Source: Hepatocystis sp. ex Piliocolobus tephrosceles
Lineage: Eukaryota; Apicomplexa; Aconoidasida; Haemosporida; Plasmodiidae
DNA: 16,575 nt
Direction: 5' to 3'
Assembly: GCA_902459845.2 (NCBI GenBank)
Contig: CABPSV020000197.1
Location: forward strand, 7,002 to 23,576
Shown here piece after piece: positions 3 to 15,349 of the stretch. Position numbers and translations under genes: made by a program. The notes under the pieces are model-generated. The model saw only the letters and a program-made list of their open reading frames with translations, was not told where the DNA came from and did no database searches. The stretch's first letter is position 1. Each line of letters opens with the position of its first letter.

Positions 3-1107
3 GGTAATAATTCCACACCATTAGAGTCAAAACCTGAAAAAAATGATTTATTAACTTCTCATAATGCATTAAAAAAATATATACTAAGATTAAAAAATGT
101 AAATGATTTTATAAAACAAGAAAATTATTTTTTAAAAAAGAAAAATGAAGCAATAATTAATAAGCAAAACCATAACAAGGCTTCAAATGATACACCTAAA
201 AACACAAATAAAATACATGCACAATATAGACATGAATTAAATAAATTAAATAAAGAAAATGATTTTTTCAAATATCAATATGAAAAACTGCTGAGAAAAA
301 ATTTGAGTTTAGAAAGAAATAATAAAGAATTAAACGATGCATTGTTAAATAGGGGTAATAATAAAAATGATAAAAACTACTTATTAAATAAAAATGGAAA
401 AAATGGAGAAAATGGAAAAAAAAGAACTTAGAGCGCATAATAATTTTTTACAAAACAAAATTTTACAAATAGAAAATTTTATTTTGAATGATCCATTTTT
501 AGTTAATAAATTTAATAGTTTTAAAGAGATTACAAATTCAGATCTTTATGATAACTTAGGAAATGATTTTAATTCTTTTAAACAAAATAATTCAAATGAT
601 TTATTATATTATATATATAACTCTTTAAAAAATAATAATGAAGATTTAAAAGATCAATTATCAAATGAAAAAAAATATGCACAAGTGTATAAAAAATATA
701 TGTATGACATGCGCGAAAAGGTTAAGACCAATTTAAATGAGCTGTACCAATTACATGATAACACGGATATAAATCATAACTACTCTAACCAATTTAATGA
801 TTCGGATAATGATAATAATAATTGTAATACTAAATTTAATAATAATGATTATATCCGTATGGATACACAAAAAAATATACAAATGATGAAGCAAAGTATT
901 TATGGAGATGTAATTAACCAAGATGAAACTGAAATGGAACAAAAATTGAAGGAACAGATGAAATATTTGACTGATAACCATAATCTTGATTTTACTAACT
1001 TATATAGCATAAACAAGGCAAAAATTAACAAAAATCAACAGTTGTTAGTACAAATGTGGAAGAAAATCGAGGATTTGGGTAGGCAGATGGCATTTCAAAA
1101 AGTATGA
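3..1107 (+). CDS. Coiled-coil-like Asn/Lys-rich protein, 5' partial, with an apparent frameshift
   Basis: I do not recognise this gene. The frame beginning at base 3 is open to a stop at 429-431 and encodes helical, charged sequence (for example KYILRLKNVNDFIKQENYFL, NKLNKENDFFKYQYEKLLRK). The frame one base further on is open from 388 to the stop at 1105-1107 and continues in the same style (KNNNEDLKDQLSNEKKYAQV, ending LLVQMWKKIEDLGRQMAFQK). The two parts together give about 367 residues with heptad-like Leu/Ile spacing, so a coiled coil is likely. The shift must fall between 388 and 431. The simplest site is the A8 run at 416-423, where reading one A fewer joins the halves. A short intron at 355-424 (donor GTAATA) would also restore the frame, but its acceptor is a bare A-run ending in G. 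No transmembrane segment or catalytic motif is seen. The true start lies left of the window. The first ATG of the downstream frame (394) is probably not a start codon. Confidence 0.72.
416..423 (+). other. A8 homopolymer at the probable frameshift
   Basis: Eight A residues lie inside a low-complexity Asn/Lys/Gly stretch made of AAAATGG-like units. The upstream open frame stops six bases after the run, at 429-431. The downstream frame becomes usable if one A is removed. An indel error in sequencing, a real inactivating indel, or a nearby mis-annotated intron would each produce this. Confidence 0.5.
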
Positions 1108-2665: not shown

Positions 2666-5600
2666 GCAAACAATAGAGGAAATTTTTCATTCAACACGAG
2701 TCAAGCAAGATATCTTGAAGATGTATATGAATATGTGAAAGATGAAGAAAATTATTTTAAAATTAAAATATTAATATTAAAAAGAAAAAAACAACTCGAT
2801 CAAATTATTGATTCCGACTTAAATACATTGCGTCAAAAAACAAATATGTACGAACACATAAATTGTAAATTATGGGATTTTATATTGAACAATAATAGAG
2901 AACACATTAAAAAGTACCCATTAAATGAAAACAGACGAATATTCGGTAGAACTTCTAGTTCGAACCCTAACCTGAATCAAATTGTGAGCCATGATATGGA
3001 ACAAGATATATATAACAGTTATATACAAAAACAAATAATTCCTCAATATTTTAGATACAAGTATGTGTATGACTATTATAAGCAATGCAAAAAAAAAAAA
3101 CAAATTCATATAAACAAAAAAAAATTTTATGATTTTTTTATTAAAGATATAATTAATTTTAAAACTGATAATGTTAATGATGAAGATGGAGATGGAGATG
3201 GAGATGGAGATGGAGATGAAGATGAAGATGAAGATGAAGATGAAGATGAAGATGATAAATTACAAATCGAAAAAATCAAAAAACAATTTTCAGAAATATT
3301 TTATAAAATAGATAAGCCAGAATATGATTTGATTGAAAAGTGTAGTTTAAATAAGCACACAGTTCATGAAAAAACTAAAAGTTGTGATGCCAATATATAT
3401 AATAAAGAAAATTATAAGAGAGTAATAAAAAATGTTATGGGTAAAACGAAACATGATGCTAAGGATAATAAAACAAAGATGAAACATCCGGTTGCAAATG
3501 CAAAAAAAAATGAGGTACATGGGAAATGGAGCAAAATTGGTAGGACAGGAGAGATAAAAATGAAAGTTAATCGAGAAAAAGAAAATGTACAAAAAGGTGA
3601 AGTAAAAGAAGAAATACAAACAGAAAAAAAAAAACAGAAAGCAAAGGATTCCCAATGTAATGAAACGAAAGAAGAAAAAAATAATATAAAACTTAAAGAA
3701 ATAAAAGAAAAAAAGAAAAAATGGGTAAGAAGCAATAGGGACAAAATGAATAAGAACAAAAGCGTTAAAATAACTAAAAATATAAATGAGTATAAAAAAG
3801 CTGTTATAATGAAAGATAAACAACAAATGTATAATAAAAGTTTGGAGAATTTGGATAAGACAAATAAAGTATATCATAAAAGATCAAAAAGCGATAGTAA
3901 TTCTTATATGTTTGAACATAATTTAAATAAATATAAAATGGTTTCTCCTACCAAACATAATTCTTCATTAGAAATATTAAAAAAAAAATTAAAAAATTTT
4001 ATTAATAACGATAGCAACGAAAATGAAAATAAAAATGCGCAAAATAAAAATGTGCAAAATAAAAATGTGCAAAATAAAAATGAGCAAAATAAAAATGAGC
4101 AAAATAAAAATGAGCAAAATAAAAATGCGCAAAATAAAAATGCGCAAAATAAAAATGCGCAAAATAAAAATGCGCAAAATAAAAATGTCCAAAATAAAAA
4201 AACTGATATATCAAATATACACAATGACAATTTCAAAACTAGCATTAATATAAATGTAAATAGTAGCACCACCAATTTTTTAAATAATAAGGAAAATCCA
4301 TTATATTCAATTGGAAAAAAAATAGCTGATAGTATAATAAATTATGTTCCATCAAATACATCAGTAAACACAAAAGAAAAAAAAGAAATTGAAAAAGATC
4401 AAAATAATAATCTTCAAATTGGAGCACGTACAATTAAAATAGATGATAACATAAAAAATGATAAAATGGATAATAAAAGTATTAAAAGCACTTTTTATCT
4501 TAATAAATCAATAAATGATAGTTATAATGAATATGATTTATCGAATACTATAAACAGCAAAAAAGAGAAAAATATTACCACGACTACAAGTAAAAAAAAT
4601 GAAAGTAACTTTTATGTATCAAACATAGAAAATTTTGCAACGAAGGAAATAGAAAAAGGAACGGATAATGTTAAAAATAACGATAATGAAATTGACATGT
4701 ATTTTTCTGATAGATTTAAAACGAAAAATAAGTCAGATAGTAAAAGTTTAAATTTTAAAAACGGGGAATATAAACATGAACCAAGCCATTCTAAGAATAA
4801 TAAATCACCTGTAGTAAGAAATAAAAAAGAACAAGGATTCAAAGATGACACATTGCATGAAATGGAACTAAAAGATAATACAATGCAAAATAATACATTG
4901 GAAAATAATACATTGGAAAATAATACATTAGAAAATAATACAATGCAAAATAATACAATGCAAAATAATACATTGGAAAATAATACATTGGAAAATAATA
5001 CATTGGAAAATAATACATTGGAAAATAATACAATGCAAAATAATACAATGCAAAATAATACATTGGAAAATAATACATTGGAAAATAATACATTGGAAAA
5101 TAATACAAGAAATGACGATGATGAATGGGAAGATCTTTTCAATGATAACACAATCGTAGATCCATCGAGCGAAAACTCTGAACCAGATTTTTTTGATAAT
5201 AAGAAATATTCCAATTTTAGACTTAATGTATTTCGAGATATAGTTTTTCATTATGATAAAAATATTTATAACTTTTTTATGAATATAATATTATATAATA
5301 AAATAGATTTCGAAAAAAAATATAAAAATAAGTTATTCAATGTAGAAATTAGCAATAAAGATATATTTAAATATGTAGTAAATATTTATGAAAAATATAA
5401 TAAAAATAACATTAACATGGATAAAAAAATGGACAATGATAAAAATAATTTACATATGACTTATAAAGAATATAAACAAATTATTGATTGGATATCTAAT
5501 AAAAATGTTACATGTTGTTTGCAAGTATTATATGAAAAACTTGATTTTATATCAGATGAGAATTTTGATAGTTTTAAAAATAGATTATTAGAAGGTGGTA

Positions 5601-8600
5601 TTATTAATTTAATTAATTTATTTCATGATGAAGATATTAATAATTTTGATAAAATTTTTGCTGTGTCTTTTGTTAATTTTTTCGATTTATTTGGAATATC
5701 TAAAGATAGCTGTATATATCATTTTAATCATATAGATAAGAAATATGTAGGTAACGGATATATATATTTAAAACATATAATTTATTATTTAAATTTAGAA
5801 CAAATACTGATAGAAGAATATCATACTAAATATTATTTTATTTCTACTTATAAAAAAAATTTAATGTATATACATATTAATGAAAATTACCATAATTTAA
5901 AAGAATTTTTTTATTCTATAAAAAAAAAAAATAATTTATATATAAGTTTAAATGAATTTATTTATTTCATGTCGAATGATGAAAAAATGCAAAAATATAA
6001 TTATCCGAAAGAGGATATAGTTAATTTATATTATTCAATTATTTTTTTTGTATACTATACAAATCAAAATAAAATTCTGCAATCATTACATTTATCAAAT
6101 GCTAATAGTGTTAAAAAAAATATGCAAAATAAAACAGATAATTTGAATGCACAAAAAATTGGACAGAAACAGTACCCCGAACAGAGCATAGATGTTAGTT
6201 ACATAAATGAAAATTATAATTTATCATTATATAAAACATATTTTAATATACACGATTTTAATTTTGTTATTGAATTAAAAGATCTATATTTTTATTTTGA
6301 AGGATTTGAATGCTCTTTTTCTAAAATAAAAAGAAGAATAATAGAAATGTATGGATCAATAAAAACTGCTATAATACTATGTCAAGAAAATTGTAACGAT
6401 GATAAAAAAAAATTTTCTAACTATCATGATAATACTAGTAACTCTTCTGATAAGTTACATAATAAAAATCAGGATCAAAATTTAAATACATTTGATTTAT
6501 TTTTAAAAGACAGATATAAATATACTAAATATGATGAAACATCACTTTCAGAATATAATTCATTACTTGATACACAATCAATGAAAATAAGAAAAAAAAA
6601 TGTAAAAAAAATAAATAAAAAAGTTTTTATGTGTTTAATGTATAATATAGGAATTTATGTAAAACATTGTTTAATTTTATGGGATAGTTTTTCTGCTTTC
6701 TTAGAAGATGGTTTATTAGATTTTAAAATTTTTATTAATATTTTAAATGGTATAACTAATACGTCTACTGCGGTAGTAGAAGAAATAAAAAAAAAAATAT
6801 TAAACGAAACCAGTAGTAACAGTAACAACGATAACGAATTAAAACCAAATAACTTCCCAGTTCGAAACAGATTAGCAGGAACAATATGTCCTAATACTTT
6901 TAAAAATATAAATAAAGATTTTACAATGCACGCATTTACTATCGATGAAATAGAAATATTTGTTGAATTGTTTAATTATATTTATCCTTTTTATTATCTA
7001 ACTATAGATGAAAAAAAACAGTTTATAAATAAATTAAAAAAAAAATGTTTTAAACAAAATTACGATTTTATGTCATTACAGGAAACTCATATAAAAAACA
7101 AAAACAATGTATCATCTTGTAATAAAAAATATATGAATGAAACTATTTATATTTTATTAAATGGTATTTTAAAAAATAGAAAAGATGCTAATGATTTTAT
7201 AAATAGCATTAATGTAATTAAAGAAGAAAATTTATACAATTATATTACACATACTGCAGTAGCTATTGTAGAAATAAACGCAAATCTTTTTACTGATAGT
7301 TTTATCAAATTATTAGATAAAAAAAAAACAATATCTGAAGAATTTATTCAAACTATTAACCATACACCAATATTTAAAAATTTCCCCTTTGCTTTAAAAA
7401 ACACTATATCAATTACTATACAAGAATGTAAATTTGAAAAAAATAAAATAATAATACGACATCACGATGACGCTAATTATTTTTATATTCTAAAAAAAGG
7501 GTTACTTAATGCATGTTATGGTAGTAACAATAATGACAGTGGCAATAACAGTGGCAATAACAATGGCAATAATAGTGGCAATAATAGTGGCAATAATAGT
7601 GGTAATAATAACAGTGGCAATAACAGTGGCAATAACAGTGGCAATAACAGTGGCAATAACAGTGGTGATAATAACAGTGGTAATAATAATGGCAACAAAA
7701 GTAACGTTATTAACACTATACGCCAATATGAATTTTTTGGAGAATTAGCCATCATATTTAATACATTAAGAACATGTAATGTAGTAGTAGAATCAGATAT
7801 TGCCATATGTTATTATATGCCAAAAGTCCGCTTTTTATCTCTTCTAACTAAAGATATACTACAAGAATTCATACAATATATTTATACTAACTACCATAAA
7901 AATGAAACTCAACATCTTATAAAAAATTATATTAATAGTAAGGATTGCAGCTATGGAATTATTAATGAACATATGAATGAATTAATTAATAAAAAAGAAG
8001 AAAAACAGAACAAAAAACAGAAAGAAAAACAGAAAGAAAAAGATCGTAACGGTGACAATAATGATAATAACAATTATTACAATGATCAAGATTCCGTTTT
8101 TTCTGAAAGTTTTAATAATAAATTAATCACCAATGAAAATATGTCAAACGAACAGAATAATTACGATATATTACAGAAATATAGTAAAAGTAAAAGTTCT
8201 GGATTTAAAAAGTTAGATACCTTTCTTTCCAGCTTATCTTCGAGTCATATTGCATTAAATGTTGACTATATTAATGAAAATAATATAAAATCTTTTTATA
8301 GTGATTTAGATAAAATATTACTAAATATTTATAATACCGAACAAAAATATTTTGCAAAAGAAATGGAAATTAACTTAATGAATGTAAAAGTTTTTAAAAA
8401 AATATTAACTAATATGAAAGATAAAGAAAGCTTTTTAAAAAAACTAAAATATTTAAAATGTCCTAAAGGAAAGCAATTAATATTAGAAGATGAGTATTGT
8501 GAATATTTTTTTTTTATTAAAGAGGGGGAAATTGTAATACAAAAATTCAATGAACATAAAAATATTTATGATGAAATTATTGTTTTAAAAAAAAATGAAT

Positions 8601-11600
8601 ATTTTGGACCCCAATTAATTTTAAGTAATATGAAATCAATTTTTATTGCTGTTGCAAAAGTAGATTCGGAATTATATACATTAGATGCAGAATCATTTAA
8701 ACAATTTTTAACTCCTTATATCGATTTACTTAATAGTTCATACGATATAATACAATTAAATATGATATCTGAAGCAGTTAATGAGGATATAAAAAAATTA
8801 AAAAAAGAAGATGATTTTATTTTAAAAGTAATAAAAATATTAAAAAAAGTACACATTATTCAAAAATTAAATGAAAAGGAACTTTATAATTGTGCCAAAC
8901 ATTTTGAATTTAAATTTTTTAAAAAAGGAAGTATTATAATAAAATATCAAGATGTATCCGATTATTTTTATATTATTAAAAAAGGAATTGTTGTAGTAAT
9001 TTTAGATCATAATGAAATGGAAGAAACAGATAAAAATAGTAATAAAAATAGTAATAAAAATAGTAATAAAAATAGTAATAAAAATAGTAATAAAAAAAAT
9101 AATTCAAAAAATCAAAAAGATAATATTTTACCAGATCAGAATATAGATGCACAAAAAACAGATGAAGAAATGTCTGAACCTTCTCCTATTTATTTATATA
9201 AATATGATTATTTTGGGGAACTATCTATTATAAATCATCAGTTAAGAACATCTACATGTAAAGCTTACACAAATTGTTTTTTATTAACAATTGATAAAAC
9301 TTCTTTTATGAACTGTTTTAGTAGTATAATTAATGATCTATTACTAGAAGCTGATGTTAAATATACTAAAAATTATTCTTTACCAAATTGGTTAAAATAT
9401 TTATATGGAATGGGAGATGTTTATGATAACTCTATGAATTCTACTTCTGCTCTTATACCTGTGCTATCAAATTCTTTTAGTAGTATGTCCGGTACAAGTA
9501 GTGAGGAATTTCTTTTTGAAAAAGAAATAAAAAAAAAACTTAAAAAAAATGACAAAAAACATAAAGAGAAAAACAATGAGTTCATGGAAATATTTGAAAG
9601 TTTTAATAATAAATCTTATAAGAAACAAGAAAAAAATGTTAATAAAAGCGATATTATTACAAGTGATAGTGCTAGTGTTGTAAGCGCTTTTGATGATAGT
9701 GATAAAATAAAAGAAATAGAAGAAGAAAAAAAACAAAAATTAAAAGAAATGAAGTTAAAAGAGCTAAAAGTATTTGAAAAAATTAAATTGAAAGAAGAAA
9801 GAAAAATTAAAAAGTTGATAAAACAAAGAGGGATTAATATGGATGCAGATAAGCTTATTCCTAAATATAATAATACTACGATGCATGATAGGGCACCAGT
9901 AAAAGATGGCGAATTAGTAAAAGATGGTAAATTAGTAAAGGATGGCGAATTAGTAAAGGATGGTAAATTAGTAAAGGATGGCGAATTAGTAAAAGATGGT
10001 AAATTAGTAAAAGATGGCGAATTAGTAAAAGATGGTAAATTAGTAAAAGATGGTAAATTAGTAAAATATGGCGAATTAGTAAAGGATGGCGAATTAGTAA
10101 AAGATGGCGAATTAGTAAAAGATGGCGAATTAGTAAAAGATGACGAATTAGTAAAGGATGACGAATTAATACAAGATGGCAAACTACAGCACCATGCCGA
10201 ACTACAACATGATGACACATTTGTACATGAAGACCCATTTAGTGGATGTATAAAAGATAACGTGAACTTAGATAGATCTAGTTCAAAATATATTGAAAGC
10301 CCCCAAAAAAACAATTTAGAAACATTTAACGAAGTAAAAAGTGTTATAAAAGATGAAACTAAAGAATTAAAAAATGAAAATAACATAGGTTCTGTAGAAA
10401 TAAAAAATAATGCTGTAAAATCTCTCAATTCTTTACTAACGAATGAACAAAGATCATTTAGCATTTTAAAAAAGAGAACAAATTCATCCAATTTGTCCGA
10501 GTTAGATATAAATAAATTAATAAAAAAATTAATAAATATTATAAACTTAGAATTTCATTCTATTTTTCACTTTTATGAATCCATTGATAAATTTAACAGA
10601 GGATATATAACATATAATGATTTTATGAATTTTATAATGCTTTTTAATATAGGAGAATTGTTTGAAAATTCTGAAGAATTAGGAATGGTATTTACATATT
10701 TATGTGGTGAAGGTAATAAAAATGTTTTAAATTTAAACGATTTTTATACAAATGCATATAAATGTTTTTACCCAAATGAAGATATGAATAAATTCGAATT
10801 GAATTTAAATTTATGTGAAATTTATGGTAATAGTAGGTTAGCTTTTCAAAAAAATATCTCTCAGTTGAATATAGAAAATTATTTCTGTACATTTCAAAAT
10901 TTCGAAACTGTTTGTAAAAAAGTTGGTTTATCTAAAAAAAATATAAAAGATATATGGAATGAAATAAATATCATGAATCAAGAAACTATACCAATCGATA
11001 TTATACTTAGTATATTAAATGGTGAATTATATATTGAAGAAGCTTATACTATATATAATGAAAAAACATCCATTGTAAACCAAGTTGTTACATTTTTTCA
11101 AACAGATGAAAACATTATTAAACTAGATAGCAATATTAATAATTTTTTGACTCAATATGAAGAACCAATTATTCTAAATAAAGCACAGCATAAATCACAT
11201 CCAAAAGAAGTTACACATATAATAAAACTATTAGAAAAAGATAATAATTTTAAATACTTAACATTAGATCAAAGAAAATTTGTTACCACTTTAATGAATA
11301 GAAAAGTTATGAAATATGAAGAAATTGTAATAAAACAAAATCAAAATAATGCACCAATTATTTGCTTATATGAAGGTGAAGCTAATATAAATAATTATCA
11401 ATTGTTTGGAGTACAATTAACTATAAGAGAATTAAAAAATAATGAAATTTATGGTTATAATGAAGTTTTGCATAATTTAGCAGCTAATTATGAAATAAAA
11501 ATAAAATCAAATAAAGCTATTGTATGGGTTTTGAGTAAAAAAGATTTTAACGAACATATAATAGAAATGTTAGAAGAAAGAAAAAATAATTGTGCTAATA

Positions 11601-12415
11601 TTTTAATAATATTAAAAAATGTACCCATTATAAAATATTTTACTCGAGAAGTACTTGAAGAAATTTCCTATGCATTAAAAGTTGAAATACATGAATCGAA
11701 TCATACCATTATACAATCTAATGATTATGCTGATAAATTTTATATTATATGTAATGGTTTAGTAACAGTAGAAATAAATTCAGAAATATTTAACAATAGA
11801 CTTGTTTTAGCAACATTAAAACAAACAGATTATTTTGGAGAATTAGCTTTAATTAAACAAAATAATAGAACAGTTAATGTTGTTTTAGATACACCAGGTA
11901 CTTTATTTTCAATGGTTGAATCAGAATTTTATAGATTATTTTATTCATATTTTGATAAATTTTTAAATAGAGCTATGGCCAATTATAAAAAAATGGAAGT
12001 AAACAACATAGCAATACAATCACGAAAAACTAGTTTTAGTAGTTTGTCAAACTTCAACAGTCACTCTTCTTTTAAAAGAGGACACAAAAAAGTTACAATT
12101 GCAGATGCGTCTGACATCAAATATGTTACAGACAATTACAATAATGACAACACAGGAAAAAAAAATAAAGAGAAAGATAAAAAAAATAAAAAAAAATCTA
12201 ATGTGGATAAGCAAGAAGATAGCGATAGTAATGCACAATACAAAAATAAAAATGTTAATGCAGACACACTTCAAGATAATAATAAAACTGATGTTTTTGA
12301 TAAAAAAAGTGGAAACCAACCAACCAAAGATAAGCATAAATCAAGTAAGGAAAAAAATAGTAAGGATAATGCTTATAAAAGTAAAGCTAATAAAGACAAA
12401 CACAATAAAGAATAA
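2666..12415 (+). CDS. EPAC: Giant multi-CNB, EF-hand-like protein (EPAC-like), 3' exon
   Basis: A single exon of 3,249 codons plus TAA; residues are numbered from the codon at 2666. The first in-frame ATG is at 2846, but coding-like sequence extends back to the acceptor at 2665, so an upstream exon is likely. Order of parts: a disordered, Lys/Asn-rich N-terminus (about 1-820) with repeats; an EF-hand-like block (loop near D1024); a helical block (near 1227-1362); then six CNB folds at about 1432-1552, 1553-1743, 1908-2022, 2055-2226, 2849-2970 and 2974-3104. A second EF-hand-like and helical block (loop near D2641) precedes the last pair. Intact phosphate-binding cassettes are FGELAIIFNTLRT (E1693, R1702), FGELSIINHQLRT (E2185, R2194) and FGELALIKQNNRT (E3059, R3068). 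The other CNBs lack the Glu and Arg; the third has FGPQ and Ser at the Arg position (P1982, S1991). A charged helix (about 2347-2391) and a Lys-rich tail follow. No RasGEF, kinase, phosphodiesterase or transmembrane segment is visible. P. falciparum has a protein described as EPAC; this match rests on architecture and neighbours recalled from memory. Its role is inferred as a cyclic-nucleotide sensor or scaffold. Confidence 0.85.
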   Translation, partial: ANNRGNFSFNTSQARYLEDVYEYVKDEENYFKIKILILKRKKQLDQIIDSDLNTLRQKTNMYEHINCKLWDFILNNNREHIKKYPLNENRRIFGRTSSSNPNLNQIVSHDMEQDIYNSYIQKQIIPQYFRYKYVYDYYKQCKKKKQIHINKKKFYDFFIKDIINFKTDNVNDEDGDGDGDGDGDEDEDEDEDEDEDDKLQIEKIKKQFSEIFYKIDKPEYDLIEKCSLNKHTVHEKTKSCDANIYNKENYKRVIKNVMGKTKHDAKDNKTKMKHPVANAKKNEVHGKWSKIGRTGEIKMKVNREKENVQKGEVKEEIQTEKKKQKAKDSQCNETKEEKNNIKLKEIKEKKKKWVRSNRDKMNKNKSVKITKNINEYKKAVIMKDKQQMYNKSLENLDKTNKVYHKRSKSDSNSYMFEHNLNKYKMVSPTKHNSSLEILKKKLKNFINNDSNENENKNAQNKNVQNKNVQNKNEQNKNEQNKNEQNKNAQNKNAQNKNAQNKNAQNKNVQNKKTDISNIHNDNFKTSININVNSSTTNFLNNKENPLYSIGKKIADSIINYVPSNTSVNTKEKKEIEKDQNNNLQIGARTIKIDDNIKNDKMDNKSIKSTFYLNKSINDSYNEYDLSNTINSKKEKNITTTTSKKNESNFYVSNIENFATKEIEKGTDNVKNNDNEIDMYFSDRFKTKNKSDSKSLNFKNGEYKHEPSHSKNNKSPVVRNKKEQGFKDDTLHEMELKDNTMQNNTLENNTLENNTLENNTMQNNTMQNNTLENNTLENNTLENNTLENNTMQNNTMQNNTLENNTLENNTLENNTRNDDDEWEDLFNDNTIVDPSSENSEPDFFDNKKYSNFRLNVFRDIVFHYDKNIYNFFMNIILYNKIDFEKKYKNKLFNVEISNKDIFKYVVNIYEKYNKNNINMDKKMDNDKNNLHMTYKEYKQIIDWISNKNVTCCLQVLYEKLDFISDENFDSFKNRLLEGGIINLINLFHDEDINNFDKIFAVSFVNFFDLFGISKDSCIYHFNHIDKKYVGNGYIYLKHIIYYLNLEQILIEEYHTKYYFISTYKKNLMYIHINENYHNLKEFFYSIKKKNNLYISLNEFIYFMSNDEKMQKYNYPKEDIVNLYYSIIFFVYYTNQNKILQSLHLSNANSVKKNMQNKTDNLNAQKIGQKQYPEQSIDVSYINENYNLSLYKTYFNIHDFNFVIELKDLYFYFEGFECSFSKIKRRIIEMYGSIKTAIILCQENCNDDKKKFSNYHDNTSNSSDKLHNKNQDQNLNTFDLFLKDRYKYTKYDETSLSEYNSLLDTQSMKIRKKNVKKINKKVFMCLMYNIGIYVKHCLILWDSFSAFLEDGLLDFKIFINILNGITNTSTAVVEEIKKKILNETSSNSNNDNELKPNNFPVRNRLAGTICPNTFKNINKDFTMHAFTIDEIEIFVELFNYIYPFYYLTIDEKKQFINKLKKKCFKQNYDFMSLQETHIKNKNNVSSCNKKYMNETIYILLNGILKNRKDANDFINSINVIKEENLYNYITHTAVAIVEINANLFTDSFIKLLDKKKTISEEFIQTINHTPIFKNFPFALKNTISITIQECKFEKNKIIIRHHDDANYFYILKKGLLNACYGSNNNDSGNNSGNNNGNNSGNNSGNNSGNNNSGNNSGNNSGNNSGNNSGDNNSGNNNGNKSNVINTIRQYEFFGELAIIFNTLRTCNVVVESDIAICYYMPKVRFLSLLTKDILQEFIQYIYTNYHKNETQHLIKNYINSKDCSYGIINEHMNELINKKEEKQNKKQKEKQKEKDRNGDNNDNNNYYNDQDSVFSESFNNKLITNENMSNEQNNYDILQKYSKSKSSGFKKLDTFLSSLSSSHIALNVDYINENNIKSFYSDLDKILLNIYNTEQKYFAKEMEINLMNVKVFKKILTNMKDKESFLKKLKYLKCPKGKQLILEDEYCEYFFFIKEGEIVIQKFNEHKNIYDEIIVLKKNEYFGPQLILSNMKSIFIAVAKVDSELYTLDAESFKQFLTPYIDLLNSSYDIIQLNMISEAVNEDIKKLKKEDDFILKVIKILKKVHIIQKLNEKELYNCAKHFEFKFFKKGSIIIKYQDVSDYFYIIKKGIVVVILDHNEMEETDKNSNKNSNKNSNKNSNKNSNKKNNSKNQKDNILPDQNIDAQKTDEEMSEPSPIYLYKYDYFGELSIINHQLRTSTCKAYTNCFLLTIDKTSFMNCFSSIINDLLLEADVKYTKNYSLPNWLKYLYGMGDVYDNSMNSTSALIPVLSNSFSSMSGTSSEEFLFEKEIKKKLKKNDKKHKEKNNEFMEIFESFNNKSYKKQEKNVNKSDIITSDSASVVSAFDDSDKIKEIEEEKKQKLKEMKLKELKVFEKIKLKEERKIKKLIKQRGINMDADKLIPKYNNTTMHDRAPVKDGELVKDGKLVKDGELVKDGKLVKDGELVKDGKLVKDGELVKDGKLVKDGKLVKYGELVKDGELVKDGELVKDGELVKDDELVKDDELIQDGKLQHHAELQHDDTFVHEDPFSGCIKDNVNLDRSSSKYIESPQKNNLETFNEVKSVIKDETKELKNENNIGSVEIKNNAVKSLNSLLTNEQRSFSILKKRTNSSNLSELDINKLIKKLINIINLEFHSIFHFYESIDKFNRGYITYNDFMNFIMLFNIGELFENSEELGMVFTYLCGEGNKNVLNLNDFYTNAYKCFYPNEDMNKFELNLNLCEIYGNSRLAFQKNISQLNIENYFCTFQNFETVCKKVGLSKKNIKDIWNEINIMNQETIPIDIILSILNGELYIEEAYTIYNEKTSIVNQVVTFFQTDENIIKLDSNINNFLTQYEEPIILNKAQHKSHPKEVTHIIKLLEKDNNFKYLTLDQRKFVTTLMNRKVMKYEEIVIKQNQNNAPIICLYEGEANINNYQLFGVQLTIRELKNNEIYGYNEVLHNLAANYEIKIKSNKAIVWVLSKKDFNEHIIEMLEERKNNCANILIILKNVPIIKYFTREVLEEISYALKVEIHESNHTIIQSNDYADKFYIICNGLVTVEINSEIFNNRLVLATLKQTDYFGELALIKQNNRTVNVVLDTPGTLFSMVESEFYRLFYSYFDKFLNRAMANYKKMEVNNIAIQSRKTSFSSLSNFNSHSSFKRGHKKVTIADASDIKYVTDNYNNDNTGKKNKEKDKKNKKKSNVDKQEDSDSNAQYKNKNVNADTLQDNNKTDVFDKKSGNQPTKDKHKSSKEKNSKDNAYKSKANKDKHNKE
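3181..3255 (+). repeat. Asp-Gly then Asp-Glu hexanucleotide repeat in the giant gene
   Basis: About five GATGGA-type units (Asp-Gly) pass directly into about six GATGAA-type units (Asp-Glu), forming an acidic stretch in the N-terminal disordered region. The array is in frame and of a replication-slippage type. Confidence 0.85.
4024..4200 (+). repeat. 15-bp repeat encoding NKN(A/V/E)Q, 11 copies
   Basis: The unit AATAAAAATGCGCAA varies mainly at one codon (GCG, GTG, GAG or GTC), giving Ala, Val or Glu. The order of the variable residue is A, V, V, E, E, E, A, A, A, A, V, so identical variants lie next to each other, as expected from recent slippage or unequal exchange. It lies in the disordered N-terminal part of the giant protein. 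Long open frames on other frames and strands here are by-products of the 3n-length unit. Confidence 0.9.
4874..5107 (+). repeat. 15-bp repeat encoding NNTLE / NNTMQ, about 15 copies
   Basis: Two unit types occur, AATAATACATTGGAA (NNTLE) and AATAATACAATGCAA (NNTMQ). They are ordered MQ, LE x3, MQ x2, LE x4, MQ x2, LE x3. The alternating blocks imply duplication of a larger segment of several units as well as single-unit slippage. The array ends just before an acidic stretch (NDDDEWEDLF) that leads into the folded part of the protein. Confidence 0.9.
7520..7705 (+). repeat. NNSG-type repeat inside the second CNB domain
   Basis: Roughly 60 codons of Asn-Ser-Gly repeats (core AATAACAGTGGC) fall between the strand FYILKKGLLNACYG and the phosphate-binding cassette FGELAIIFNTLRT. 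Both flanks are good CNB sequence, so this is an insertion in a surface loop of the beta barrel and not a domain boundary. Confidence 0.88.
9032..9094 (+). repeat. 12-bp repeat encoding KNSN, 5 copies, inside the fourth CNB domain
   Basis: The unit AAAAATAGTAAT is repeated five times and followed by a KKNNSKN remnant. It lies between FYIIKKGIVVVILD and the cassette FGELSIINHQLRT, the same loop of the CNB fold that carries the NNSG array in the second CNB domain. Confidence 0.9.
9899..10186 (+). repeat. 18-bp repeat encoding VKDG(E/K)L, 16 copies
   Basis: The unit is GTAAAAGATGGCGAATTA or GTAAAAGATGGTAAATTA. The variable fifth residue runs E, K, E, K, E, K, E, K, K, then E in most later units. 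Late copies diverge (VKYGEL, VKDDEL x2, IQDGKL). In the E copies the Gly codon is GGC and in the K copies GGT, so the two unit types differ at linked sites and the E/K pair probably duplicated as a 36-bp unit. The array links the fourth CNB domain and charged helix to the second EF-hand-like block. Confidence 0.9.
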
Positions 12416-13882: not shown

Positions 13883-15349
13883 TTAGGTTTTCCTTTTTTT
13901 TTTTTTCACTACAAAATCACCTTCCTCTACATTATTATTCTGATTATCTTGTTTCCCATCTTGAGTATTATCTTTTTGTTTATCATTATCATTTTCATTA
14001 CTATTTTTATTATTTTCTTCTTCTTCTTTTTCTTTTTTAATCTTGTTTTCACTTTTTAGTGTATTAATTGTTGTATTACTTGTTGTATTACTTGTTGTAT
14101 TACTTGTTGTATTACTTGTTGTATTACTTGTTGTATTGCTTGTTGTATTGCTTGTTGTATTTCCCACAAGTTTAGGGACATAACCCTCAGCTTTTAACCA
14201 ACTCACTGGTGTTTTTTCATTTGGTTTACCATGTTTATCTAAAAGTCCAGCTATTATTAATTTTTTTTTTTCCATAGATCTATTCCCATACCCCCATCGA
14301 ACATCGTAAGTATCTCTATCCATTATAACTCTTTTCGTTAAAGATACAATACCATGATCTATTGTGGCAATAACAGTAGATGTCATCTGAGCAATTGCTA
14401 AAGCAACTGCTTCACCTTTTGTTGTCATTATAACAATTTCTGAGTTTAAATCAATATTATTATCAAATCTTAATACTCCTGGGATAGTTAATTTAGCACC
14501 ATAACAAATTGCATTAACTGCACTATCTTTTATAACTATACGAGGGAAATTAATTAATAATCTTTCTAAAGGCATTATAACTTTTCTTAAATAACTTTCA
14601 TCTCCTGTCGTATCATAAACATATTTTGCATCCAAAATATCATGTAATGTATGCATATTATCGTATTCAGTTAAAACTCCTGATTTTACTCTTCTTAACT
14701 CTTGCATATGTGCACCAACACCTAATAATAAACCAATGTGTTCACATAAAGTTCTTATATAAGTTCCGGCTTCACATTTAACCCAAAATAAACATGTGTT
14801 ATTTATTTCATCATAATCTAACAATTTGGAATCATAAATGGTTCGAACTCTTAATTGTCTTTTGACTGCACATATTAATGGAGGTCTTTGAAAAATAGCT
14901 CCTTGAAAATTATTTAATACAATTTTTACCTCTTCCAAACTATTAGGTTTTGCATGAAATTTACATACACAAACATATTCTTTACCAGACTCTTGTTGAG
15001 ATTTTACTAATCTAGTTGCTCTGTTTAAACAAACTAATAATACTCCTGTAACTTTAGGATCTAATGTTCCACTATGTCCTGTTTTTTCACAATTTAAAAT
15101 TTTTTTTATCCATGAAACTACTTCATGAGAAGATGGGTTACTAGGTTTATCTAATACGATAATACCATATTTTAAATATTCTTCCAAATTTCTTGAATAA
15201 GGAGAGTTACCCATAGGTATAGGTGTAAAATGAGAACTTCTTATATTCAGTTTATCATAATCTTTTAGTAATAATGGCCAATCAGATGTATTTATAACAG
15301 CTTCTTTAAGCTCTGGTTTTATTTTGTACTCTTCTTTTACTTCTTCCAT
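13883..15349 (-). CDS. CBF5: H/ACA ribonucleoprotein subunit 4, CBF5/dyskerin-type RNA pseudouridine synthase
   Basis: A complete 488-codon frame from ATG (15347-15349) to TAA (13883-13885). CBF5 is the catalytic subunit of H/ACA snoRNPs (with NOP10, NHP2 and GAR1). It converts guide-selected uridines in rRNA and snRNA to pseudouridine and acts in the nucleolus. What shows this: an N-terminal dyskerin-like segment (about 1-58); a TruB-type catalytic domain starting [20 protein letters not shown]; the signature [14 protein letters not shown] at 91-104 with catalytic Asp97; the conserved [11 protein letters not shown] and [12 protein letters not shown] segments; and a PUA domain at about 272-345 ([20 protein letters not shown]). 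The conserved segment [15 protein letters not shown] follows. The tail holds an NTTS repeat, an Asn/Asp/Glu-rich stretch and a basic end (KKKKRKT) suited to nuclear or nucleolar targeting. Length fits the family, with no intron or frameshift. The gene is convergent with the giant CNB gene. Confidence 0.96.
14066..14161 (-). repeat. 12-bp repeat encoding NTTS in the CBF5 tail, 8 copies
   Basis: Residues 397-428 are seven NTTS units and a final NTTI. On the + strand this appears as repeats of TTGTATTACTTG, two of which carry TTGTATTGCTTG. It lies after the conserved globular part, in the poorly conserved C-terminal tail, so length changes should not disturb catalysis. Confidence 0.9.

Follow-up and report, generated by a model that had tools for sequence, protein, structure and literature searches.

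A duplicated EF-hand-like and cyclic nucleotide-binding module in the EPAC/CBP-O/PCR12 protein of Hepatocystis and its relatives in Plasmodium and Toxoplasma

A protein of malaria parasites annotated as EPAC has been described under several names. In P. berghei it is CBP-O (PBANKA_1025300), one of just three cyclic-nucleotide effectors predicted for Plasmodium, which is found at the apical tip of the ookinete and is needed for efficient midgut invasion (PMC12422582). As presented in that paper, CBP-O has five cyclic nucleotide-binding (CNB) domains (1-4 and X) and no exchange-factor domains, binds cAMP and cGMP in a CNB-dependent manner, with a pull-down for CNB3, and shows no oocyst-load defect upon deletion of CNB4 alone; its N-terminus was reported to hold no recognisable domains, yet is needed for apical localisation (PMC12422582). 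In Toxoplasma the protein is PCR12, one of the subunits of the preconoidal P2 ring; its CNB domains were unresolved in the structure, and the same report describes Ca2+ signalling as essential for conoid extrusion (PMC12819142). Its gene, TGME49_219070, is listed elsewhere with the conserved domains EF, Crp and CAP_ED (PMC7951837 Table 1). Loss-of-function EPAC alleles arise in cultured P. falciparum, and the gene is dispensable in blood stages (PMC10272863, PMC5746546, PMC6530879, PMC7595149). The protein, five CNB domains and the Toxoplasma EF annotation are thus already known. In the passages of the EPAC/CBP-O/PCR12 literature that we consulted, neither an internal duplication nor a calmodulin-like domain pair nor a sixth CNB is described. 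Here we add the repeat layout, the sixth CNB and a reading of the EF lobes.

We analysed a 16,575-nucleotide stretch of Hepatocystis DNA (the window), which is A+T-rich throughout (GC 18-29% per kilobase). Its main coding exon (2666..12415, plus strand) is open from 2666 to the stop at 12415 and encodes a product of 3249 residues; a 3' splice site likely lies just 5' of 2666. Protein searches returned nine homologues, every one from Plasmodium and named EPAC or cyclic nucleotide-binding protein, and no full-length coccidian orthologue. The closest relative of solved structure is Toxoplasma PCR12 (TGME49_219070, PDB 9ya0; E 9.3e-73 with a single-sequence query), followed among the best PDB sequence matches by PKG and PKA-R. 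A 10-sequence Plasmodium profile matched PCR12 (9ya0_MA) with an E value of 4.2e-134, aligning to its residues 42-336, 1052-1521, 1570-1727, 1744-2003 and 2118-2607. The separate N-terminal match (42-336, 37.7 bits) corresponds to an upstream exon of the same gene (394..1107, plus strand) that encodes the N-terminal coiled-coil region (ILQIENFILNDPFL...) and was also located by tblastn matches from three of the four relatives tried. Homology therefore runs along the length of the protein, from the N-terminal coiled coil to the C-terminal CNB array, and by this measure the main reading frame is the Plasmodium "EPAC" protein, orthologous to PF3D7_1417400, P. berghei CBP-O and Toxoplasma PCR12. 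At E <= 1, Pfam reported only cNMP_binding, a weak LED_rpt and weak EF-hand families in the main product, and nothing in the upstream exon; the scan found no protein kinase domain, which places the protein outside the cGMP-dependent protein kinases.

The adjoining minus-strand gene (13883-15349) encodes Cbf5/dyskerin and has a TTSN-type repeat at 14060-14161, close to the C-terminal end of its product; the CBF5 gene is, we take it, also the neighbour of PF3D7_1417400 in 3D7. Two overlapping frames share the 5' part of the gene (3-431 in frame 3 and 394-1107 in frame 1). Three relatives have a further 93-100 residues between the matching parts, for which no counterpart turned up in the window. 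This arrangement may reflect either a disrupted allele, as reported in cultured P. falciparum, or an assembly error. The interval from 1108 to 2665, between the coiled-coil exon and the main exon, is likely a long intron and includes a minisatellite with a 16-bp unit, TATATACATATTTGTT, at 2115-2309. Within the main reading frame, in-frame tandem repeats occur at 4026-4200 (QNKNA-type), 4875-5107 (ENNTL-type), 7532-7715 (NNSG) and 9898-10180 (VKDGEL-type).

A sequence-only reading of the window had proposed that an EF-hand-like block, a helical block, a degenerate CNB and an intact CNB occur twice in the same order. The motifs on which it relied are all present: IDK...GYI loops at 5732-5764 and 10583-10609, EMYGSIKTA (6344-6370) and EIYGNSRLA (10817-10843), INILNG (6734-6751) and LSILNG (11006-11023), YLTIDEKKQF (from 6995) and YLTLDQRKF (from 11255), and FGELA at 7736 and 11834, with 81 and 77 residues, as it had counted, between ILNG and YLT. 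Four of its five pairings (ILNG, YLT, FGEL and EMYG/EIYG) hold, the EMYG/EIYG pairing being seen only in a low-threshold alignment. The IDK...GYI loops had been mispaired: by BLASTP, hhalign and profile scan, the first EF-hand of copy 3 pairs instead with the stretch at 5870-6031, where residues 1071-1102 (INENYHNLKEFFYSIKKKNNLYISLNEFIYFM) lie.

On the revised map, with all features on the plus strand, copy 1 comprises EF lobe 1 (residues 1069-1215, 5870..6310), which carries a low-complexity insert; the EMYG helix and EF lobe 2 with an insert between them (residues 1220-1382, 6323..6811; HMM positions 126-221); a cryptic degenerate CNB, here CNB0 (residues 1425-1556, 6938..7333); and the intact CNB published as CNB1 (7331..7894), within which the NNSG array sits. 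The middle pair consists of a degenerate CNB, published as CNB2 (8378..8755), and an intact one, published as CNB3 (8828..9370), which matches PF00027 and has FGEL...RT in 10 of 10 species. Copy 3 comprises EF lobe 1 (residues 2626-2710, 10541..10795), EF lobe 2, formerly read as the helical block (residues 2718-2790, 10817..11035), the degenerate CNB published as CNBX (11213..11575), which aligns to its copy 1 counterpart, and the intact CNB published as CNB4 (11588..11989), recognised by its cassette and by PF00027 (best stretch 3010-3092).

The proposed duplication passed a profile-profile test, most cleanly in Toxoplasma. Copies 1 and 3 of PCR12 align end to end (hhalign 99.3%, E 8.7e-21, 453 columns), and their non-CNB (EF) blocks taken by themselves reach 48.4 bits across about 140 residues, which 0 of 2000 local shuffles equalled (best shuffle 8.2). 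The Plasmodium copy 3 block likewise matches PCR12 twice, at 1052-1521 (73 bits, iE 5e-20) and at 2118-2607 (245 bits, 7e-72). Since the PCR12 copies match with their non-CNB part included, the module duplication, on these alignments, is older than the Plasmodium/Toxoplasma split. The comparisons demonstrate, at the level of sequence, that the C-terminal part of the protein was built by duplicating a unit made of a two-lobed EF-hand-like domain, a degenerate CNB and an intact CNB, and that the copies flank a further CNB pair.

In Plasmodium alone the hhalign match between copies 1 and 3 is confined to the CNB pair (247 columns over both CNBs, E 1.1e-11), where the YLT and FGEL anchors fall in register. 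Between Plasmodium copy 1 and Toxoplasma copy 1 the alignment begins in lobe 2, runs into the intact CNB and takes up 333 columns (E 1.3e-7), as against only 144 columns near the C-terminal end for Plasmodium copy 1 with Toxoplasma copy 3 (E 1.8e-5); column-reversed controls gave P 0.7 and 0.81. The longer alignment, together with position, identifies Plasmodium copy 1 as the orthologue of Toxoplasma copy 1, and it has diverged, gaining low-complexity inserts and, it seems, one more EF lobe. Outside the CNB folds the Plasmodium-only signal is marginal: hhalign of the non-CNB blocks gave P 0.0087 over 32 columns, and global hhalign of the same blocks found no signal (P 0.23). The short block 1066-1180 matched copy 3 with P 0.0003, and block 945-1065, which contains the IDK...GYI loop, with P 0.21. 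BLASTP of the window's two non-CNB blocks, with E values for a single pairwise comparison, gave collinear matches at 0.005 (EF1, 13/32 identical) and 0.087 (lobe 2), and a third at 0.12 in which copy 3 EF1 is matched to the beginning of the extra lobe. Once the copy 3 profile also contained the two Toxoplasma blocks, the non-CNB comparison reached P 0.0018 and a score of 32.2, against at most 17.7 for six control blocks (column-reversed copy 1, two N-terminal stretches, two linkers and the middle CNB).

When the Toxoplasma copy 1 block is part of the profile, the copy 1 alignment lengthens to 341 columns (E 2.3e-16) and takes in lobe 2 and the linker; because that profile contains the copy 1 orthologue, the result speaks to domain identity, not paralogy, and with Toxoplasma copy 1 left out the copy 1 alignment is confined to the CNB pair. 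The module HMM used in shuffle tests also contains the Toxoplasma copy 1 sequence. With it, the whole copy 1 block beat all 300 local shuffles in nine of 10 species, the window being the lowest scorer (2/300 shuffles reach its score). Lobe 2 (residues 1290-1437) was reached by 0/300 shuffles in 10/10 species, and lobe 1 (1060-1215), matched from residue 1070 on and from HMM position 26 to 79-99, by 0/300 in seven of 10 and by 1-5/300 in the others. Stretches 500-836, 836-965 and 2240-2600 had no consistent module HMM signal (1/300 for the window's 2240-2600 linker). We conclude that the duplication itself is real and that these alignments support the interpretation first put on it, the observation being partly confirmed in its original form: the expected end-to-end match was obtained within Toxoplasma PCR12 and was limited to the CNB pair in Plasmodium alone, and the likeness, weak outside the CNB folds in Plasmodium alone (P 0.009), is far beyond chance once the Toxoplasma orthologue is included.

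Published CNB1 appears to be preceded by a cryptic, easily missed sixth CNB. A profile built from the family's other CNBs matched CNB0 (residues 1425-1560) with 0/300 shuffles reaching its score in 10/10 species, by a narrow margin in the window (6.0 against a best shuffle of 5.8), and three control stretches were null with this profile. The match is concentrated in the first ~37 residues, and a profile of degenerate CNBs only matched CNB0 weakly (1 to 23/300 shuffles reach the score). The cassette Glu and Arg are present in CNB1, CNB3 and CNB4 of 10/10 species. In the window, CNB1 retains E1693, R1702 and T1703, and CNB4 retains E3059 and R3068; Glu, Arg and Thr are kept in CNB1 and CNB3, and the residue after Arg is Ser in CNB4 of three of 10 species. 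CNB0, CNB2 and CNBX lack the phosphate-binding cassette in all 10 species, as judged by eye from aligned segments, CNB2 lacking both Glu and Arg in 10/10 Plasmodium proteins. In Toxoplasma, the first middle CNB (PCR12 1570-1717) retains cassette Glu and Arg, so that the two lineages would differ in how many sites could potentially work.

In a tree of 39 CNB sequences and 127 columns, CNB0 and CNBX of both genera grouped together (UFBoot 97 under two models). The AU test rejected CNB0 with CNB1 (p 0.046) and CNBX with CNB4 (p 0.045) and gave p 0.28 for CNB0+CNB2, 0.24 for CNBX+CNB2 and 0.085 for CNB1+CNB4; the SH test rejected no CNB topology. It is doubtful that long-branch attraction by itself explains why CNB0 groups with CNBX, because the degenerate CNB2 stays outside the group. 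These trees bear on the suggestion, already made in the sequence-only reading, that three ancestral EF-CNB-CNB modules stood in tandem and that the middle one lost its EF domain. A constrained tree uniting CNB0, CNBX and CNB2 fits as well as the best tree (AU p 0.74), and the Plasmodium middle pair has the same order of a degenerate followed by an intact CNB. However, CNB2 has no supported join to CNB0 or CNBX (38 in one model, absent in the other), the Toxoplasma first middle CNB keeps its Glu and Arg (FGEMSIIKNEPRG), unlike CNB0 and CNBX, and residues 1740-1905 give no EF-like signal (hhalign P 0.31). We regard a three-module ancestor as a serious possibility, though one that we would not favour.

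The EF-hand-like and helical blocks, presented at first as separate units, do repeat, and they look like, and probably are, two lobes of one calmodulin-like domain. Copy 3 EF lobe 1 matches Pfam EF-hand_7 at E 8.2e-4 (20.1 bits, below the cut-off of 30) in three of five members, and it forms a helix-loop-helix in the AlphaFold2 model (pLDDT 60-74); no Pfam EF-hand family was found in copy 1 of five members at E <= 5. AlphaFold2 models from five-sequence alignments had a mean pLDDT of 40.4 and 39.3, too poor to superpose the copies. The copy 3 lobe 2 model, of low confidence, overlays the lobes of calmodulin, troponin C and CDPK. For the copy 3 model Foldseek returned nothing at E <= 0.001, with EF-hand proteins recurring among the 50 matches listed, and the five highest VIA-align rows for copy 3 were not calmodulin-type proteins.

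Residues 965-1056 (5558..5833), which contain the IDK...GYI loop, correspond to module lobe 2, not lobe 1: they match HMM positions 133-195 in nine of nine species, six with 0/300 shuffles and three with 1-3/300. As this stretch is of the lobe 2 type and copy 3 EF1 pairs with 1071-1102, Plasmodium copy 1 seems to carry one EF lobe more. A Toxoplasma fragment (P0013) showed no such lobe in the 225 residues that precede copy 1. A full extra EF domain over 836-1066 was also considered and rejected as a whole, since only its second half is supported: taken whole, the region was reached by 0, 0, 1, 4, 10, 20, 77, 120 and 120 of 300 shuffles and is not significant in most species. Residues 846-964 (window 5201-5557) are conserved in Plasmodium and match neither the EF-module nor the CNB profile.

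Some of these EF-hands might be working Ca2+ sites, in which case the protein would integrate Ca2+ with cAMP or cGMP. The Toxoplasma copy 3 EF1 loop, DGNNSEIVDFDE, is near-canonical; the extra lobe of six of 10 Plasmodium proteins has a loose loop (DEDI[NS][ND]FDKIFD) in which positions 1, 3, 5 and 12 are occupied by ligand-type residues; and the Ca2+ requirement of conoid extrusion (PMC12819142) and the EF domain listed for the Toxoplasma protein (PMC7951837 Table 1) fit this idea. The window, however, does not have the loose loop, its last position being Ala, and canonical loops are absent from the EF positions of both EF blocks in the 10 Plasmodium proteins and of Toxoplasma copy 1; the two canonical-pattern hits (window and P. 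vinckei) both fall in linker or insert sequence. We therefore consider Ca2+ sensing by this protein unlikely.

It could also be argued that CNB domains alone were repeated, as in an ordinary CNB expansion, and that the EF-like and helical likeness is convergence or chance. EF-hands are common and short, and Plasmodium-only profiles align strongly over the CNBs alone; yet the Toxoplasma EF blocks match by themselves and the Toxoplasma copies align end to end, and we find this account very improbable. That the protein is a true Epac, a cAMP-activated Rap exchange factor (RapGEF3/4), is suggested by source-given names only and can practically be dismissed, as the RasGEF, REM, RA and DEP domains are all absent from the 3249-residue product and the upstream exon (Pfam E <= 1) and two papers, one being PMC12422582 in its description of CBP-O, share the non-Epac view.

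Together, these observations make it probable that the window encodes an EPAC/CBP-O/PCR12 protein with an ancient duplicated EF-CNB-CNB module that acts as a flexible cyclic-nucleotide sensor arm, the duplicated module being evident from sequence and the mode of action conjectural. The N-terminal region would hold the protein in the preconoidal ring, with the modules projecting as a flexible arm. Binding of cAMP or cGMP to an intact CNB would move it against its degenerate partner, by analogy with tandem-CNB regulators. Because each outer unit joins a calmodulin-like domain to a degenerate/intact CNB pair, the nucleotide signal would probably be passed to the degenerate partner and the EF domain. 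The calmodulin-like domain, having no canonical Ca2+ loop in Plasmodium, may serve as a docking or packing adaptor, for the most part independent of Ca2+, through which the change reaches ring partners, and with two or three units per chain the protein could set a threshold or read cAMP and cGMP jointly. A bolder proposal, which we offer tentatively and think rather unlikely to hold in full, is that the preconoidal ring carries a multi-input receptor of duplicated pseudo-calmodulin/CNB/CNB modules, in which calmodulin-like transducers, largely blind to Ca2+, convert the binding of cAMP and cGMP into a signal, mechanical or by docking, at the place where gliding actin and secretion begin, and that the published N-terminal deletion removed half the sensor plus the anchor.

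The duplicated EF-CNB-CNB module and the sixth CNB change the design and reading of truncations. Mapped approximately, through P. vinckei numbering, the published delta-N end (Pb 1694) corresponds to window residue ~1527 and the delta-CNB start (Pb 1716) to ~1549. Both boundaries fall inside CNB0, and therefore neither construct separates the modules cleanly; delta-N (Pb 1-1694) would take away the coiled coil and the EF domain along with most of one CNB. It thereby becomes testable whether the coiled coil or the calmodulin-like domain is what apical targeting and midgut invasion depend on.

A search with the module alignment was limited to scoring the 7999 candidates with the most words in common. 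Apart from a single Toxoplasma fragment (P0013) it yielded 21 proteins; none of the 21 was an EF-CNB-CNB protein, as judged by sequence for four and by precomputed Pfam domains and coverage for the others. Among known systems, the modelled lobes resemble those of calmodulin and CDPKs in their predicted pairing of helix-loop-helix lobes and differ in that the Ca2+ ligands are largely degenerate in Plasmodium. The CNB pairs with a phosphate-binding cassette recall the PKA regulatory subunit and PKG, whereas the window protein has no kinase domain and places an EF-hand-like domain before each outer pair. Toxoplasma PCR12 is homologous along its length, with the same module order, but differs in its near-canonical copy 3 EF1 loop, in the Glu and Arg of its first middle CNB and in its upstream region, where the extra EF lobe was not found. 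P. berghei CBP-O (PBANKA_1025300) and P. falciparum EPAC (PF3D7_1417400) belong to the same family, and the published five CNBs are five of the six described here. The CBP-O paper reports no recognisable domain before CNB1, and the term "EF-hand" occurs 0 times in its main text (PMC12422582), whereas here that region appears to hold a calmodulin-like block and a degenerate CNB.
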